The position numbers and the translations under genes are program-made. 35,071 nt of DNA from Halanaerobium salsuginis (GTDB lineage: Bacteria > Bacillota > Halanaerobiia > Halanaerobiales > Halanaerobiaceae). Below the pieces are notes generated by a model that was not told where the DNA came from, ran no database searches, and saw only the letters and a program-made list of their open reading frames with translations. The stretch spans positions 1 to 35,071 of the forward strand of contig NZ_FOTI01000030.1 of assembly GCF_900114545.1 (NCBI RefSeq). The letters run 5' to 3'. How positions within the stretch are numbered: position 1 is the stretch's first letter; the number at the start of each line of letters is the position of its first letter. Shown here one piece after another: positions 1-24,966 of this stretch.

Positions 1-345
1 TACAGATTCCTGATGTTAAAGAGTCTATTCAAGCTTTAAATAACTGGTATGAAAATGTTAGTCAGTCTAAATTAAATCTTTTCTATAGAGCTAAAGGAAC
101 AGTAAAACGCTGGGAACAACACATTATTAACTATTTTAAAACTAGAATAACCAACGGATTTGCTGAAGGATTAAACAACAAAATCAAATTAATCAAAAGA
201 ATTGGCTACGGTGTTCCCAAAGTTGAAAACTTAAAACGCCGAGTATTTTTATCATTGCTAAGTATTTAAGAGTAATTCAAAAAAACAAAGAGATAACATG
301 ATTCAAACGGTGCTATTTAGATTTCACAACATTTGTCAAAGAACC
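1..345 (+). mobile_element. ISL3-family insertion sequence, right-hand part
   Basis: This is the 3' end of an ISL3-family element: the transposase tail (3-269), a short non-coding stretch, and a terminal repeat at about 322-345. Read inwards from 345 on the minus strand the terminus begins GGTTCTTTGACAAATGTTGT, which resembles known ISL3 ends (GG-T/C-TCTTTG). The left end lies outside the window, so the 8-bp target duplication usual for the family cannot be checked. The element has inserted into the minus-strand gene ending at 313: the last ten codons and stop of that gene lie inside the IS terminus. Confidence 0.8.
3..269 (+). CDS. ISL3-family transposase, C-terminal fragment (window edge)
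   Basis: This open frame enters from the left edge and stops with TAA at 267-269, giving 88 residues. It contains the segment ITNGFAEGLNNKIKLIKR, the conserved C-terminal block of ISL3 (DDE_Tnp_ISL3) transposases around the last catalytic Glu, followed by a basic GYG region. The enzyme cuts and pastes the surrounding element. Full-length family members are about 400-450 residues, so only the last fifth is visible. The frame shows no disruption here, so the truncation is most simply the window boundary. Confidence 0.88.
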   Translation, partial: QIPDVKESIQALNNWYENVSQSKLNLFYRAKGTVKRWEQHIINYFKTRITNGFAEGLNNKIKLIKRIGYGVPKVENLKRRVFLSLLSI

Positions 346-762
346 AACATTTTTAACTAATTCTAATGAATTTATTCTATTTAGAATCTTTTCTTTATAG
401 TCATCTGATAATTGTAAAGTTGTAATGATTAAAATATTCTTAATTTCCAAGCTATCATTCAATATTCTATCAAAAAAATTTTTATTATTAACTAAATGTA
501 TTAAAGAGGCTCTATTAGTATAAGATTTAATTTCAATTATTGTCTTACCTTCAATTTGATCAAAACCATCTACCGCATATCCATCATATTCCAAGTACCT
601 ATTATTTGTGTCTGGATTCCTATAGTAAGGCTTAAACTCTTTGCCTTGATCTTTTAAATATTTAGCAAACAATTTTAATATTAATGTTTCAATCATCATA
701 TGAAATCTTCTAGGATTGTCATTATTTTCTCTAATATTTTTAAAAATATCTTTTATAGTCAT
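313..762 (-). pseudogene. PD-(D/E)XK nuclease-like protein, 3' end replaced by ISL3 terminus
   Basis: The 149-residue frame starts at ATG 762 behind a good site (AAGGTGGT). Residues about 59-79 contain YDGYAVDGFDQIEGKTIIEIKS, which has the spacing of a restriction-endonuclease-like D...ExK active site (Asp, then E-I-K). I infer a Mrr/REase-type nuclease domain; such domains occur as N-terminal effectors of larger STAND or NACHT defence proteins. The last ten residues (GSLTNVVKSK) and the stop are encoded by the inverted terminal repeat of the ISL3 element, so the native C-terminus is lost. The remaining part, if kept, would lie beyond the other end of the IS. The gene sits in the cassette following attC-like site 1. 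Nuclease assignment is moderate; truncation by the IS is strong. Confidence 0.65.
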
Positions 763-816
763 TATTAAATACCACCTTTATAACAATATTATTTGTACAT
801 TTGTTCTAAGTATTTC

Positions 817-957
817 GCATAACGTCCCTGGTGTTCCCGACGTGCTCGTGCCGTTAGGCCTGGCAGGACTTTTGCTTGTGTTTTTGCAAAAGGCATGACA
901 GAGAGCATGTCCCGAAGGGTAGCCGATTTTTGGCGTCACGGGAACACCATGTTAGGC
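817..957 (-). repeat. attC-like integron recombination site 1
   Basis: Read on the minus strand, the site begins GCCTAAC (957-951) and ends GTTATGC (823-817), the inverse-core and core pair of an attC site. The arms continue as TGGTGTTCCCG and CGGGAACACCA, which pair, with unequal unpaired spacers (A versus GGGAC) next to the cores. The total length of 141 bp is at the top of the usual attC range. Outer bases (tatttcgc / gcgaagt) match site 2. It lies 118 bp after the stop at 1075 and 55 bp before the start at 762, the position expected at the end of a cassette. The 958-1074 gap beside it shows nothing else. Confidence 0.72.
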
Positions 958-1074
958 GAAGTAGTACTTGGGTAAAAAATCAAGAATAAATACATTAAAA
1001 CTTGTTATAATAAAATTAATTAACTTTAATTCCCTATTCATTAAAAATATTTGATACCTGCATTACTTTTAAAA

Positions 1075-1803
1075 TTATTTACTTAATACATCTGAGCAAA
1101 CTTTTTCAACTTTTTTGATAGCTGTATATAGTCTTTTTAATAATTCATCTTCTTCAGACATTTCCCAAAAAACAGCTTCATGTTTATGCATTTCTTTTAA
1201 ATGTTTTTCAAATTCTTCATCAGTCATATTTTTTCTTCCCTGACGTTTCCAATAATGTTCTCCTAACATTTGTGCAGATATAAATATTTCATTTATAATC
1301 TTATTAATCTCGTGAAAAGGAGCAATTGTATCTGATCCAAACAATGCCATATAACGATATTTGAGACTATTAAGTTTGTTAAAATCTTCTTTTACTTTTT
1401 CATATCTCTCAAAAACTACATAAGCTTGATCTAATAATTCTTTTTATTGAGGTGTTTCACCGGAACTACTTTTTCTAGTAGAACCTTCCCCTTTATAACT
1501 GAAAGGATTTCTTATCATTTTAATATGATCTTTACATTGATAAAATAAAACAAGAACTTCTTCTGCAAGTTCCATTTGTTTTTTACTTTTTAATTCTCTT
1601 CTCCATTCATTTATTCCCTTTAGAGCAGCAAAAGACGCAACAATAATAGATAAACTCTTCAATATATCAAATATGTTTTTAGAAAAATATTTTAATGTAC
1701 TTAAAAAAAACTCCAAAATAATTATATACACTCCTAAACTAAAGAAATTACTTATGATACCTACATTAGTGAAATTATTGTACGAATAATAAAAACTGCA
1801 CAA
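1075..1803 (-). pseudogene. Membrane-anchored protein of unknown function, broken by one in-frame TAA
   Basis: One 242-codon frame runs from TTG 1803 to the stop at 1075, interrupted by TAA at 1446-1444 after codon 119. Reading through joins ...SSSGETPQ to KELLDQAYVVFERYEKVKED without a frameshift, so a single nonsense change (for example GAA to TAA) is the simplest cause. The N-terminus has a hydrophobic stretch with one or two membrane segments (about 15-60), followed by a charged, mostly helical cytoplasmic part. I do not recognise a named domain; it resembles hypothetical proteins found in accessory DNA. The start overlaps the upstream HEPN-like gene by 43 bp, so the two were probably one translationally coupled unit in a single cassette. 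The start site is uncertain (weak AGAGAG site). Confidence 0.68.
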
Positions 1804-2576
1804 TCAAGTGCTCTCTTTACAAATATGGATGAAGAATTCTGTTCTCCATGAACATCTGAAAACTCTCTTCTACATGCACCTAAAACATAACCCGCCTGAT
1901 TAACTGATCCTCTATGATTTTGCCAAAATATATTTATTTGTCTATCAGAAAGATTTGTTTCTTCCAGAGTTCTTTTATATTCAACTTCAAATACATCAAT
2001 AGATTTTGCTACTCTCTCTTGATAAGAAGCATCACGATGATCTCCCAGATCATAAGTTTGGTAAACATCTTCAGTTAAACTATCAACAGCTCCACATATA
2101 GATGTCATTGCTCCAGTAATATCACCATCTCTAAATCGCTTTAATACTTTTTTTACCTCGTTATGCATTTCTTCTGGTAATTCACTAGTATCAATATCCA
2201 TTTGTAAATCTAAAGGATATGGTTCATTGCCACTAATACCCCATCCAACTCTTTCTAAAACTTGTTCCAAATCTTCTTTTAAAGATGATTTTCTATTTAA
2301 AATTTCTTCTATACAATAACTAACAACTCTATTTTTCTCTGTTTGAGACAAATTAAAAAATAACTCTTCTATTGCATCCATTAATTGTCCCTTACTAGTT
2401 CCTCCATGAAAACTTTGCTGTAAATGAGCTAATTCATGAATTGGTAACCCTGCGGCCCCCACAATATCTTTAATATTTGCAAAAGAAAATTCACTTCTAA
2501 TAATTCCTCTAATCGTGCCCCAAGTATTAGATAATTCCAAATTATATTCACTCCCATTTATGATATTAGTAAGCAC
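1761..2576 (-). CDS. Abi_C/HEPN-like abortive-infection-type protein
   Basis: This is a 271-residue soluble protein. Its C-terminal third has the layout of the Abi_C (abortive infection C-terminal) domain: a helix with SICGAVDSLTEDVY, then NHRGSVNQAGYVLGACRREFSDVHG and a hydrophobic final helix. Residues R237-EFSDV-H243 fit the R-X4-6-H catalytic signature of HEPN RNases, so RNA cleavage is a reasonable inference. The N-terminal half is not recognised. The GTG start at 2576 lies only 7 bp past the attC-like core and would have to use a weak AGGCGA site inside it. A TTG at 2540, preceded by GGGAGTGA, is a real alternative. The downstream gene overlaps this one by 43 bp. Its place between two attC-like sites marks it as a cassette gene. 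Confidence 0.68.
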   Translation of the reverse strand: MLTNIINGSEYNLELSNTWGTIRGIIRSEFSFANIKDIVGAAGLPIHELAHLQQSFHGGTSKGQLMDAIEELFFNLSQTEKNRVVSYCIEEILNRKSSLKEDLEQVLERVGWGISGNEPYPLDLQMDIDTSELPEEMHNEVKKVLKRFRDGDITGAMTSICGAVDSLTEDVYQTYDLGDHRDASYQERVAKSIDVFEVEYKRTLEETNLSDRQINIFWQNHRGSVNQAGYVLGACRREFSDVHGEQNSSSIFVKRALDCAVFIIRTIISLM

Positions 2577-2582
2577 TATTTC

Positions 2583-2687
2583 GCCTAACGTTACTGGGAT
2601 TTAAGAAGTTTATGAGGCTTAGGGCGACTGCCCTTGCCGAATAAATTTGCAATGGAGCGCAGCGGAATCTTCAATCCCATGTTATGT
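2583..2687 (-). repeat. attC-like integron recombination site 2
   Basis: On the minus strand it runs from ACATAAC (2687-2681) to GTTAGGC (2589-2583). The next arm bases (TGGGATTGAAGA and TTAAATCCCA) pair, again with a 1-base spacer on one side and a longer one (GTAAC) on the other, as in site 1. An inner hairpin (agggc-gact-gccct) lies in the centre. The site is 105 bp long. It starts 18 bp after the stop of the RES gene (2706) and ends 7 bp before the next start (2576), so it sits exactly at a cassette junction. Outer bases tatttcgc and gaagt are shared with site 1. Confidence 0.75.
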
Positions 2688-2705
2688 GAAGTTACTTTTT
2701 GAAAA

Positions 2706-4010
2706 TTAAATATTTAAATCTACAAAAGTAGCATCAGGATCTGTTAAAAGTTCTTTATCAATAAAATCAATTTCCTCAAATGATTCTTCTGAATTTATTG
2801 AACTAGTAAATTTTACACTTTCAATTTGTAAAACTTCAAATTTTTCTAAATACATTATATTTTTAAATGAATCAAGTTTATTTTTAAAATAATCTCTTGA
2901 AATATATTTACTTTGATAAGCGTCACTATCTGGTCCACAAAACAAGGTATAATTAGAACCTTCTTCTGACTGACTGCTATAATACTTTATTCCATTGTAA
3001 TCTAAACTCCTTATATATTCAGAAAACAATTGCGTAGGCACATATTCTAACATAACATCATATGGAGATAGAGGTTTAGATATTTCTTCTATAAAACCTT
3101 TCAAAAAATCTTTACCCCATCTAATGTCATGTGTATAGTCGGGATCAAATAAACTTTTAATTTTAAAACTAGGTATTTTAGTTAAATCTAATATTTTTAA
3201 TTCTTGTGTCAAAATAAATTTACCCAACCAGATTTTATCACCAACATTGGGTTTGATTTCTGAAATGCAAACTTCACGATTATCTGCTACATACATATAA
3301 GGAATCCCTGCTGGACTCATTCTATTATTAGAAGCCTTATTTAATGGAGGAGGTCCCATTTCTTTCATATAGGACTTTGGTTCACCAGATATAACACCAT
3401 CTCCTTTAACCCTTACACGCCAAATTTCTTTTCCAACTTCTAGTTTTATAGTATTATCCTTCATAAGTTTTGCTATATTATTTAATAAATTTTCTCTATT
3501 TTCAAGACCAATGTCAAAAAAACGATTGAAATGTTTTACTTGGTTTTTAAAAGTATTCCATGAATAAGAAAATTCATTATATTTTGCTCCATTTAATTTT
3601 CCTTTTAGAATAAATTTTGCTTGCTCACCATCAAAAATGTTTGTTTCATTATCATTTTTTTCTTGCTTACTAGGACTACCATCTGTTATTAAATCATTAC
3701 AAAGATTTTCAGTTTTATTCTTTGATTTTAATTTTTCAGAAAAAGCATCCTCTTGAGAAAGTATATCAAAAGGCACCTTAAAATCTATATCTTTTTGTCC
3801 TATATAATCTTTATATTTTGCATATTCAGAATCATTAATATGATCATATGCTTTTAAAATTGATTCTCTTATAAAAGGACCTAAATCTGAAGTTTTAGTT
3901 ATATTTATTTCATTTGATCCACAATAATCACAATTACCTTTCAAATTTGCTTCTTTAATTTTTTCTTTAATGAATTTATTATCAAAACATTCAATACAAC
4001 AGATTCCCAA
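2706..4010 (-). CDS. HEPN/RES-NTD and RES-domain NAD-degrading toxin-like protein
   Basis: The protein has 434 residues from the preferred TTG at 4010. The start is chosen because GGAGGG (4022-4017) sits 6 bases before it, whereas the ATG at 4025 has no ribosome site. The N-terminus has C5-x2-C8 and C27-x2-C30, a zinc-ribbon-like pair typical of the HEPN/RES N-terminal domain 1 family. The RES domain spans about 195-365: WRVRV near 197, then NRMSPAGIPYMYVAD with R230, Y238 and Y240, E251 in ISEI, and a late YYSSQSEEGSNYTLF block. RES proteins such as MbcT degrade NAD+; with this N-terminal domain they are thought to act in defence or growth arrest. No separate antitoxin gene (Xre/MbcA type) is adjacent, which differs from classical RES-Xre pairs. 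The gene is followed directly by attC-like site 2. Confidence 0.83.
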   Translation of the reverse strand: MGICCIECFDNKFIKEKIKEANLKGNCDYCGSNEINITKTSDLGPFIRESILKAYDHINDSEYAKYKDYIGQKDIDFKVPFDILSQEDAFSEKLKSKNKTENLCNDLITDGSPSKQEKNDNETNIFDGEQAKFILKGKLNGAKYNEFSYSWNTFKNQVKHFNRFFDIGLENRENLLNNIAKLMKDNTIKLEVGKEIWRVRVKGDGVISGEPKSYMKEMGPPPLNKASNNRMSPAGIPYMYVADNREVCISEIKPNVGDKIWLGKFILTQELKILDLTKIPSFKIKSLFDPDYTHDIRWGKDFLKGFIEEISKPLSPYDVMLEYVPTQLFSEYIRSLDYNGIKYYSSQSEEGSNYTLFCGPDSDAYQSKYISRDYFKNKLDSFKNIMYLEKFEVLQIESVKFTSSINSEESFEEIDFIDKELLTDPDATFVDLNI

Positions 4011-4234
4011 AATAAGCCCTCCCATTTTATAGATGTTTTTTAATAAATTAATTGATATATCTTAAAAATTAAGTAATTTCATATAATTCACTTATTCACG
4101 AACTAACTTACATTAATCCCTTAAAAATAAAGATCTTAACGAACCTTATTTCATTAATATCTTATATAAATAAAAAATAGACAATATAATAAATATTCAA
4201 TAAAAGTAATAATTATCCTTTGCATAAACCAAAA

Positions 4235-24740: not shown

Positions 24741-24889
24741 TTTAAATAATCGCCATGACAGGCAGTCTGTCCTTTAATAAAATCTACGGAGTTAGCTGTC
24801 GGGCTGGAAGTAAAGGTCTTCCTCTAAACTTAGATTCGCCCCAAATCGGTGGGTTCCCCGCTCTCAAATAGAGATTCGACAACAGATAA
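24741..24889 (-). ncRNA. c-di-AMP riboswitch (ydaO-yuaA type) upstream of ktrA
   Basis: Read on the minus strand, the aptamer core blocks are gagcggggaaccca (24863-24850), ttggggcgaatct (24845-24833) and cagcccgacagctaactccg (24806-24787), matching the conserved GGGGAACC, GGGGYGAAUC and CCG-CAGCUAAC parts of the ydaO family. A closing stem can form between ttgtcg near 24882 and cgacag near 24799. A further hairpin (ggacag...ctgtc, near 24755-24772) follows. In the family, c-di-AMP binding favours the downstream terminator and lowers K+ uptake genes, which fits ktrA here. Confidence 0.93.
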
Positions 24890-24966
24890 TATTCTTTTTA
24901 ATTATTAAATCATAATTTACTTTGTTTGTCAATTATAGATAAAATCAGGCTTTTTAATAAATCAAG

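Follow-up and report, generated by a model that had tools for sequence, protein, structure and literature searches.

Integron-like cassette arrays in Halanaerobium salsuginis and a XerA-type recombinase without the IntI patch as their probable enzyme

Two long imperfect inverted repeats resembling attC sites lie in the window, that is, the whole stretch of 35,071 nucleotides of Halanaerobium salsuginis DNA analysed here, and no integrase gene is seen beside them. This raises the question of whether the repeats are recombination sites of a gene-cassette system and, if so, which enzyme would act on them. Published surveys list one complete integron and few CALINs (attC clusters without an integron integrase) in Firmicutes, and count Bacillota and Bacteroidota as nearly integron-free (PMC9024848). 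To address the question, the genome was examined by pattern, protein and DNA searches. The sites are very probably equivalents of attC in a system that captures cassettes as an integron does, its enzyme being a XerA-type tyrosine recombinase without the IntI patch. Array anatomy, cassette boundaries, movement between species, the attI match, the association with the recombinase and the absence of the IntI patch, all established at the level of sequence, carry this reading.

Both sites are present on the minus strand, with the cores, shared outer bases and asymmetric spacers that an earlier note on this DNA had described. On that strand, the site at 2687..2583 (hereafter site 2) reads CTTCACATAAC-A-TGGGATT...AATCCCA-GTAAC-GTTAGGCGAAA, or by parts CTTC-ACATAAC-A-TGGGATT...AATCCCA-GTAAC-GTTAGGC-GAAA. 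The site at 957..817 (site 1) reads CTTCGCCTAAC-A-TGGTGTTCCCG...CGGGAACACCA-GGGAC-GTTATGCGAAA, or by parts CTTC-GCCTAAC-A-TGGTGTTCCCG...CGGGAACACCA-GGGAC-GTTATGC-GAAA. Cores, outer bases and the 1-nt and 5-nt spacers are common to the two; the stem sequences are different, yet each still pairs. A generic inverted-repeat finder returned no such sites from five composition-shuffled copies of the window, and an Rfam search matched no family at either site. Elsewhere in the window, a c-di-AMP riboswitch (ydaO/yuaA leader) lies at 24766-24891 on the minus strand, with a score of 71 bits, far over the gathering score.

A search of the genome for the shared cores, as the earlier note had suggested, gave at least 22 copies, located on contigs C10, C55, C66, C70 and C97 (the last being that of the window), against none for the reversed pattern. 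Related genomes contain up to 32 copies each by the same core pattern, again with none in the reversed control, while the main site type was not found in the viral contigs searched. Nearly all sites of the family share the 1/5-nt spacer layout, and they measure 100-160 nt, with a conserved DNA core at either side and no U-run. Folding of the bottom strand was a further check suggested in the note, and this strand folds better at both window sites (Table 1). Folding energies make it the more stable strand in 119 of 122 and 65 of 73 sites, 184 of 195 overall, a calculated preference that is partly owed to G-T pairing in an asymmetric sequence. Because the site finder selects for stems, stem conservation was judged by counts against shuffles and against the opposite strand.

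Table 1. Features of the cassette array in the window
Feature	Position	Strand	Remarks
Orphan attI	4084..4167	-	Copy of the 80-bp region from recombinase stop codon to crossover point; core AAGTGA↓ATTATATGAAAT (GTT to ATT)
Cassette 0	2589..4086	-	Spans the interval between the crossovers of attI and site 2; unit set by crossover points
Cassette-0 gene	2706..4025	-	439 aa, HEPN/RES-domain protein; Pfam RES 5.9e-12, HEPN_RES_NTD1 5e-8
attC-like site (site 2)	2583..2687	-	R'' ACATAAC and R' GTTAGGC, 1/5-nt inner spacer; bottom strand favoured in folding (z -3.2)
Cassette 1	823..2588	-	Perfect pairing of its ends, R' GTTAGGC with R'' GCCTAAC
Cassette-1 gene	1761..2576	-	271 aa without Pfam match; start codon follows site 2 by 6 nt
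Cassette-1 ORF	1444..1803	-	119 aa, unknown (ORF list, Pfam)
Cassette-1 ORF	1075..1350	-	91 aa, unknown (ORF list, Pfam)
attC-like site, longer type (site 1)	817..957	-	R'' GCCTAAC and R' GTTATGC, 1/5-nt inner spacer; bottom strand z -8.65
Cassette 2, truncated	290..822	-	Own site missing; cut by transposase-like fragment at left end of window (partly inference)
Cassette-2 gene	313..762	-	149 aa, unknown (ORF list, Pfam)

The order of genes and sites agrees with this description. The sites follow genes of the same strand, which bears out the claim that minus-strand genes are each followed by a site in the correct orientation. For instance, the gene of cassette 0 lies on the strand of its site and ends with a stop codon 19 nt before site 2; its HEPN/RES product is likely a toxin. 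In cassette 1, the same-strand 119-aa and 91-aa neighbours (1075-1803) may represent one gene split by a stop codon or a frameshift. At positions 1-290, a transposase-like C-terminal fragment ends the last cassette at the contig edge.

With cassettes cut at GTT, each site would leave its R' half to the following cassette, and the best partner of this half is then expected to be the R'' of the next site. The window follows this rule: each site is mismatched internally, and the perfect pairing listed for cassette 1 joins the R' of site 2 to the R'' of site 1. Such R'/R'' pairing between neighbouring sites is the signature of the intervening cassette. The same holds on a larger scale in 195 sites grouped into 36 arrays, where every locus has its sites on one strand only. 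Single-orientation arrays also occur in related species, with 16 sites by the finder in G012 (contig C28) and 21 + 21 in G014, for example; contig C66 of the present genome has 15. The main ORF lies on the strand of the site in 65 of 73 cassettes, with a median stop-to-site distance of 30 nt. R' of one site and R'' of the next form 6.02 of 8 pairs, compared with 4.20 within one site and 4.28 with other sites (same cassette versus same site, p 3e-28; maximum of 2,000 permutations 4.70). Beyond the family of the window, the corresponding values are 5.88 of 7 for the same cassette and 3.42 of 7 for the same site.

Comparison of arrays further revealed 34 cassette pairs shared over their full length at 90-100% identity. 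In 24 of these, the flanking gene regions match on neither side, and identity ends at the ...C↓GTT core (the arrow marking the crossover). As read from these alignments, cassettes thus travel as precise units delimited by cuts at ...C↓GTT, the breakpoints being resolved to within the shared CGTT core. A 1,734-bp cassette on contig C55 of this genome is 100% identical in another species (G012), with different neighbours, indicating that the system was active recently.

These data bear on two other readings of the repeats, which the earlier note had named as possible refutations and which are both rejected here. According to the first, they would be MITE-like or transposon-derived palindromes lying between genes by chance. 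The inverted ends CTTCGCCTAAC and GTTAGGCGAAAT do resemble terminal repeats and many near-identical copies exist, but the copies never lie on both strands of a locus and, in distant phyla, are confined to the region downstream of the recombinase. Moreover, the repeat does not move by itself: gene and site travel together, with the cut at GTT within the repeat, and the ends pair by cassette and not by repeat, making this origin extremely unlikely. The second reading takes them for intrinsic terminators or for some other kind of RNA element at the ends of genes, as their short distance from stop codons and their hairpin folding might suggest. It has next to no probability in our opinion, given the length of the sites, the conserved DNA cores on both sides, the missing U-run and Rfam match, the better folding of the DNA bottom strand than of the transcript-sense strand, and the exact cassette boundaries inside the repeats.

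The cargo of the cassettes includes matches to phage-defence proteins (Gabija GajA, MADS, SoFic, PARIS AriA, Uzume, OLD) and to toxin types (Fic, PIN, HigB-like Gp49, RES), together with methyltransferases, glyoxalases and many unknowns. Defence and toxin-type cargo is typical of integrons. Small paired ORFs that run opposite to the cassettes at three loci (L049, L055, L058) resemble the toxin-antitoxin cassettes with their own promoters of Vibrio superintegrons. Contig C70 starts with transposition-type genes, an AAA ATPase and a DDE-type protein, beside its array (L011:170-2933).

Arrays of several related genomes (G012, G016, G017, G018, G022, G001 and, in interrupted form, G014) are headed by a tyrosine recombinase gene that runs in the direction of the cassettes. 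In G014, an inserted stretch interrupts the recombinase (C1:1188.4-1190.7k, L050/L066), and two large arrays with many duplicated cassettes persist there. The array-head recombinase of the present genome (361 aa) is encoded at C75:389-1474, on a contig that ends 388 bp downstream. The remark that no integrase is in view stands for the window; the genome has this dedicated array-head recombinase on another contig. Among 38 genomes of the order, 11 have both recombinase and sites, 4 sites only, 4 the recombinase only and 19 neither (Fisher p 0.0009).

The recombinase is followed by an attI about 80 bp past its stop codon (C75:306-390; about 80-150 bp in general). Since a first cassette that entered at a recombinase-adjacent attI should find the complement of its R'' there, this complement was sought 40-260 bp past the recombinase stop codon at 24 loci from several phyla. 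The mean match was 5.5 of 7, with 17 of the 24 loci at 6 or 7, while shuffled partners gave a mean of 3.45 and a maximum of 4.25 in 5,000 permutations. The orphan attI of the window, situated just upstream of the first cassette gene, is 89% identical over 84 nt to that of C75 (alignment score 144, shuffled maximum 63). Such copies of attI number three in the 38 genomes, all in this genome (C75, C55 and the window). The array of the window thus starts at an orphan attI with its recombinase on another contig, which explains why no integrase was seen in the window. Its core, changed from GTT to ATT, may indicate an inactive or worn-out copy. On C55, the core GTTATGTGAA of the orphan attI (L059:8699-8783) matches the end of the first cassette, CTTCACATAAC, a sequence match suggesting that a cassette was captured at an attI distant from the recombinase gene.

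The catalytic domain of the recombinase matches PF00589 (3e-42), and array recombinases show no variation at the catalytic residues R, K, H-x-x-R, H and Y. By sequence family, catalytic domain and fold, the protein is close to archaeal XerA (NCBIfam NF040815; PDB 4a8e, 5hxy): it scores 227.9 and 230.4 bits with the XerA model, over the curated cut-off of 220, and its AlphaFold model (pLDDT 87) has archaeal XerA (Z 23.3) and VchIntIA (Z 21.6) as closest folds. Archaeal XerA acts in chromosome resolution at dif sites, whereas the present gene is found at the head of cassette arrays and encodes an additional N-terminal domain of ~80 aa. This domain matches HARP weakly (E 0.005, below the family cut-off), and its structure resembles the XPB damage-recognition domain (Z 5.5) and the SMARCAL1 HARP domain (Z 4.0), both under the trust level, so that the HARP/XPB resemblance is only a lead. 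No close relative of the recombinase above 46% identity was found in plasmids.

An ordinary integron, with a canonical IntI and canonical attC sites in an under-sampled order, would share much of this logic: a recombinase, an attI, cassettes in a single orientation and a GTT crossover. The recombinase also reaches 195 bits with the integron-integrase model, in addition to its structural similarity to VchIntIA. However, this score is under the curated cut-off of 265, and the XerA model fits better. The ~35-aa IntI patch between the conserved lysine and HxxR is absent in comparison with VchIntIA, IntI1 and two Bacillota IntIs, and the alignment of VchIntIA is a split match. In a tree that included three IntIs only, these form their own clade with support of 100, and the array recombinases fall outside. 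In this genome and order, the search for IntI gave only partial matches, all without model positions ~180-230; since 2 of 398 Bacillota genomes did yield true IntIs by the same search, this negative is meaningful. A finder for the 1/5 layout misses the class 1 attC of a reference plasmid and detects no site near any Bacillota IntI. Finally, the recombinase gene runs with the cassettes, whereas in class 1 integrons it runs against them. On these grounds an ordinary integron is highly improbable. The integrase with an integron-specific patch for which the earlier note proposed to search is thus a clean negative as regards the patch, and a patchless recombinase was found.

To follow the system further, named genomes were scanned with the recombinase family, which gave 80 loci with distant relatives. 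A finder built on AACA-stem...stem'-nnnnC-GTT detected 62 sites on the recombinase strand and none on the opposite one (shuffled, 1 and 0); at a slightly lower threshold, 68 sites lie downstream, with none upstream or on the opposite strand. The hosts include Nitrospirota MAGs, Halanaerobacter, Halonatronum, Fusibacter, Arundinibacter, Rufibacter and several Flavobacterium species, with 12 consecutive sites in F. difficile. The presence of Halonatronum and Halanaerobacter among the named matches fits the host order, Halanaerobiales, proposed for the window. In 42 of the 80 cases the contig stops within 2.5 kb past the recombinase. Among the 38 relatives with long downstream sequence, 20 have no site by this finder, suggesting either that not every family member heads an array or that their sites differ. 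An independent set from a Bacillota sample gave 14 sites downstream and none elsewhere, cassette pairing of 6.4 versus 4.1 of 7, and attI matches of 5-7 of 7. Across the 398 Bacillota genomes, the recombinase (E <= 1e-70) occurs in 21, with a detectable array in only some of them, and IntI in 2. Relatives without a detected array include those of Paenibacillus and Saccharibacillus (L091, L092, L093, L096), where the contig ends soon after in three of the four.

It could also be imagined that the cassette system is genuine but moved by the host XerC/XerD or by some other recombinase, and not by the array-head gene, all the more as the latter is Xer-like and a XerC lies near it on C75. This is very unlikely, as the sites and attI directly follow the array-head gene in many phyla and its presence tracks that of the sites within the order, whereas XerC/D are, to our knowledge, near universal. 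We retain the array-head recombinase as the probable enzyme of the system.

In the proposed mechanism, the array-head gene on C75 encodes this recombinase, and the attI 80-150 bp past its stop codon would be a double-stranded site ending in ↓GTTRNNNN. The cassettes, of one to a few genes each, would most likely pass through a circular form, whose joined ends would make a long imperfect hairpin with an extended ~10-bp R box, the 1/5-nt asymmetric spacer and a variable stem. Folding calculations point to the folded bottom strand as the one on which recombination would take place. The recombinase would join the cassette to attI at C↓GTT, so that cassettes would enter at the head of the array and in one orientation; it could also excise cassettes or move them from site to site. 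Further arrays are headed by several attI copies that have no recombinase gene, that of the window among them, and these copies are presumably served in trans.

Comparison with IntI integrons (mobile class 1, sedentary chromosomal in Vibrio, archaeal) reveals a common plan. Both have a tyrosine recombinase with an adjacent attI that receives the first cassette, and one-orientation cassettes, each closed by a long hairpin site and together carrying many defence and toxin genes. The crossover G↓TT, the R boxes RYYYAAC/GTTRRRY and the R' carried by the downstream cassette are also the same. On the other hand, the present recombinase lacks the IntI patch and has the N-terminal extension, its gene is codirectional with the cassettes with attI after the stop codon, and several attI copies exist in one genome. 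In canonical attC sites, the central spacer occupies both arms of the stem and the L box has extrahelical bases; the present sites differ, with their 1/5-nt asymmetric spacer and extended R box. The earlier interpretation as a CALIN is correct in that these are cassette-array recombination sites on a contig without a nearby integrase. It does not hold as a simple CALIN of ordinary attC, because the array has its own attI copy, the genome has the matching recombinase on C75 without an IntI patch, and the spacer is non-canonical. With no IntI patch and such a spacer, the system is integron-like and stands beside, not inside, the known IntI family, possibly as a separate integron lineage. We are somewhat inclined to go further and regard it as a second, deeply branching lineage, present in several bacterial phyla and commoner than IntI in Bacillota, in which the XerA-type recombinases would never have possessed an IntI patch; here the HARP/XPB-like N-terminal domain may replace the patch in reading the extrahelical bulge of the folded site. 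A search of open-access full texts found no earlier description of the system.

Collectively, the sequence comparisons indicate that the same arrangement of a recombinase, a capture site and swappable cassettes recurs in salt-loving Clostridia-like bacteria and other Bacillota as well as in Bacteroidota and Nitrospirota. The IntI-specific patch or domain is the integron criterion of the field, used by IntegronFinder and by surveys (PMC9668308, PMC2426708), and standard searches would probably miss such arrays or not report them as integrons. If the system works as it looks, Bacillota and Bacteroidota own large cassette reservoirs with phage-defence and toxin genes. The finding also touches on the origin of integrons: since a related but patchless recombinase seems able to recombine hairpin sites, the need for the patch becomes testable. 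Furthermore, if the N-terminal domain does the job of the patch, cassette capture at folded sites would have two molecular solutions.
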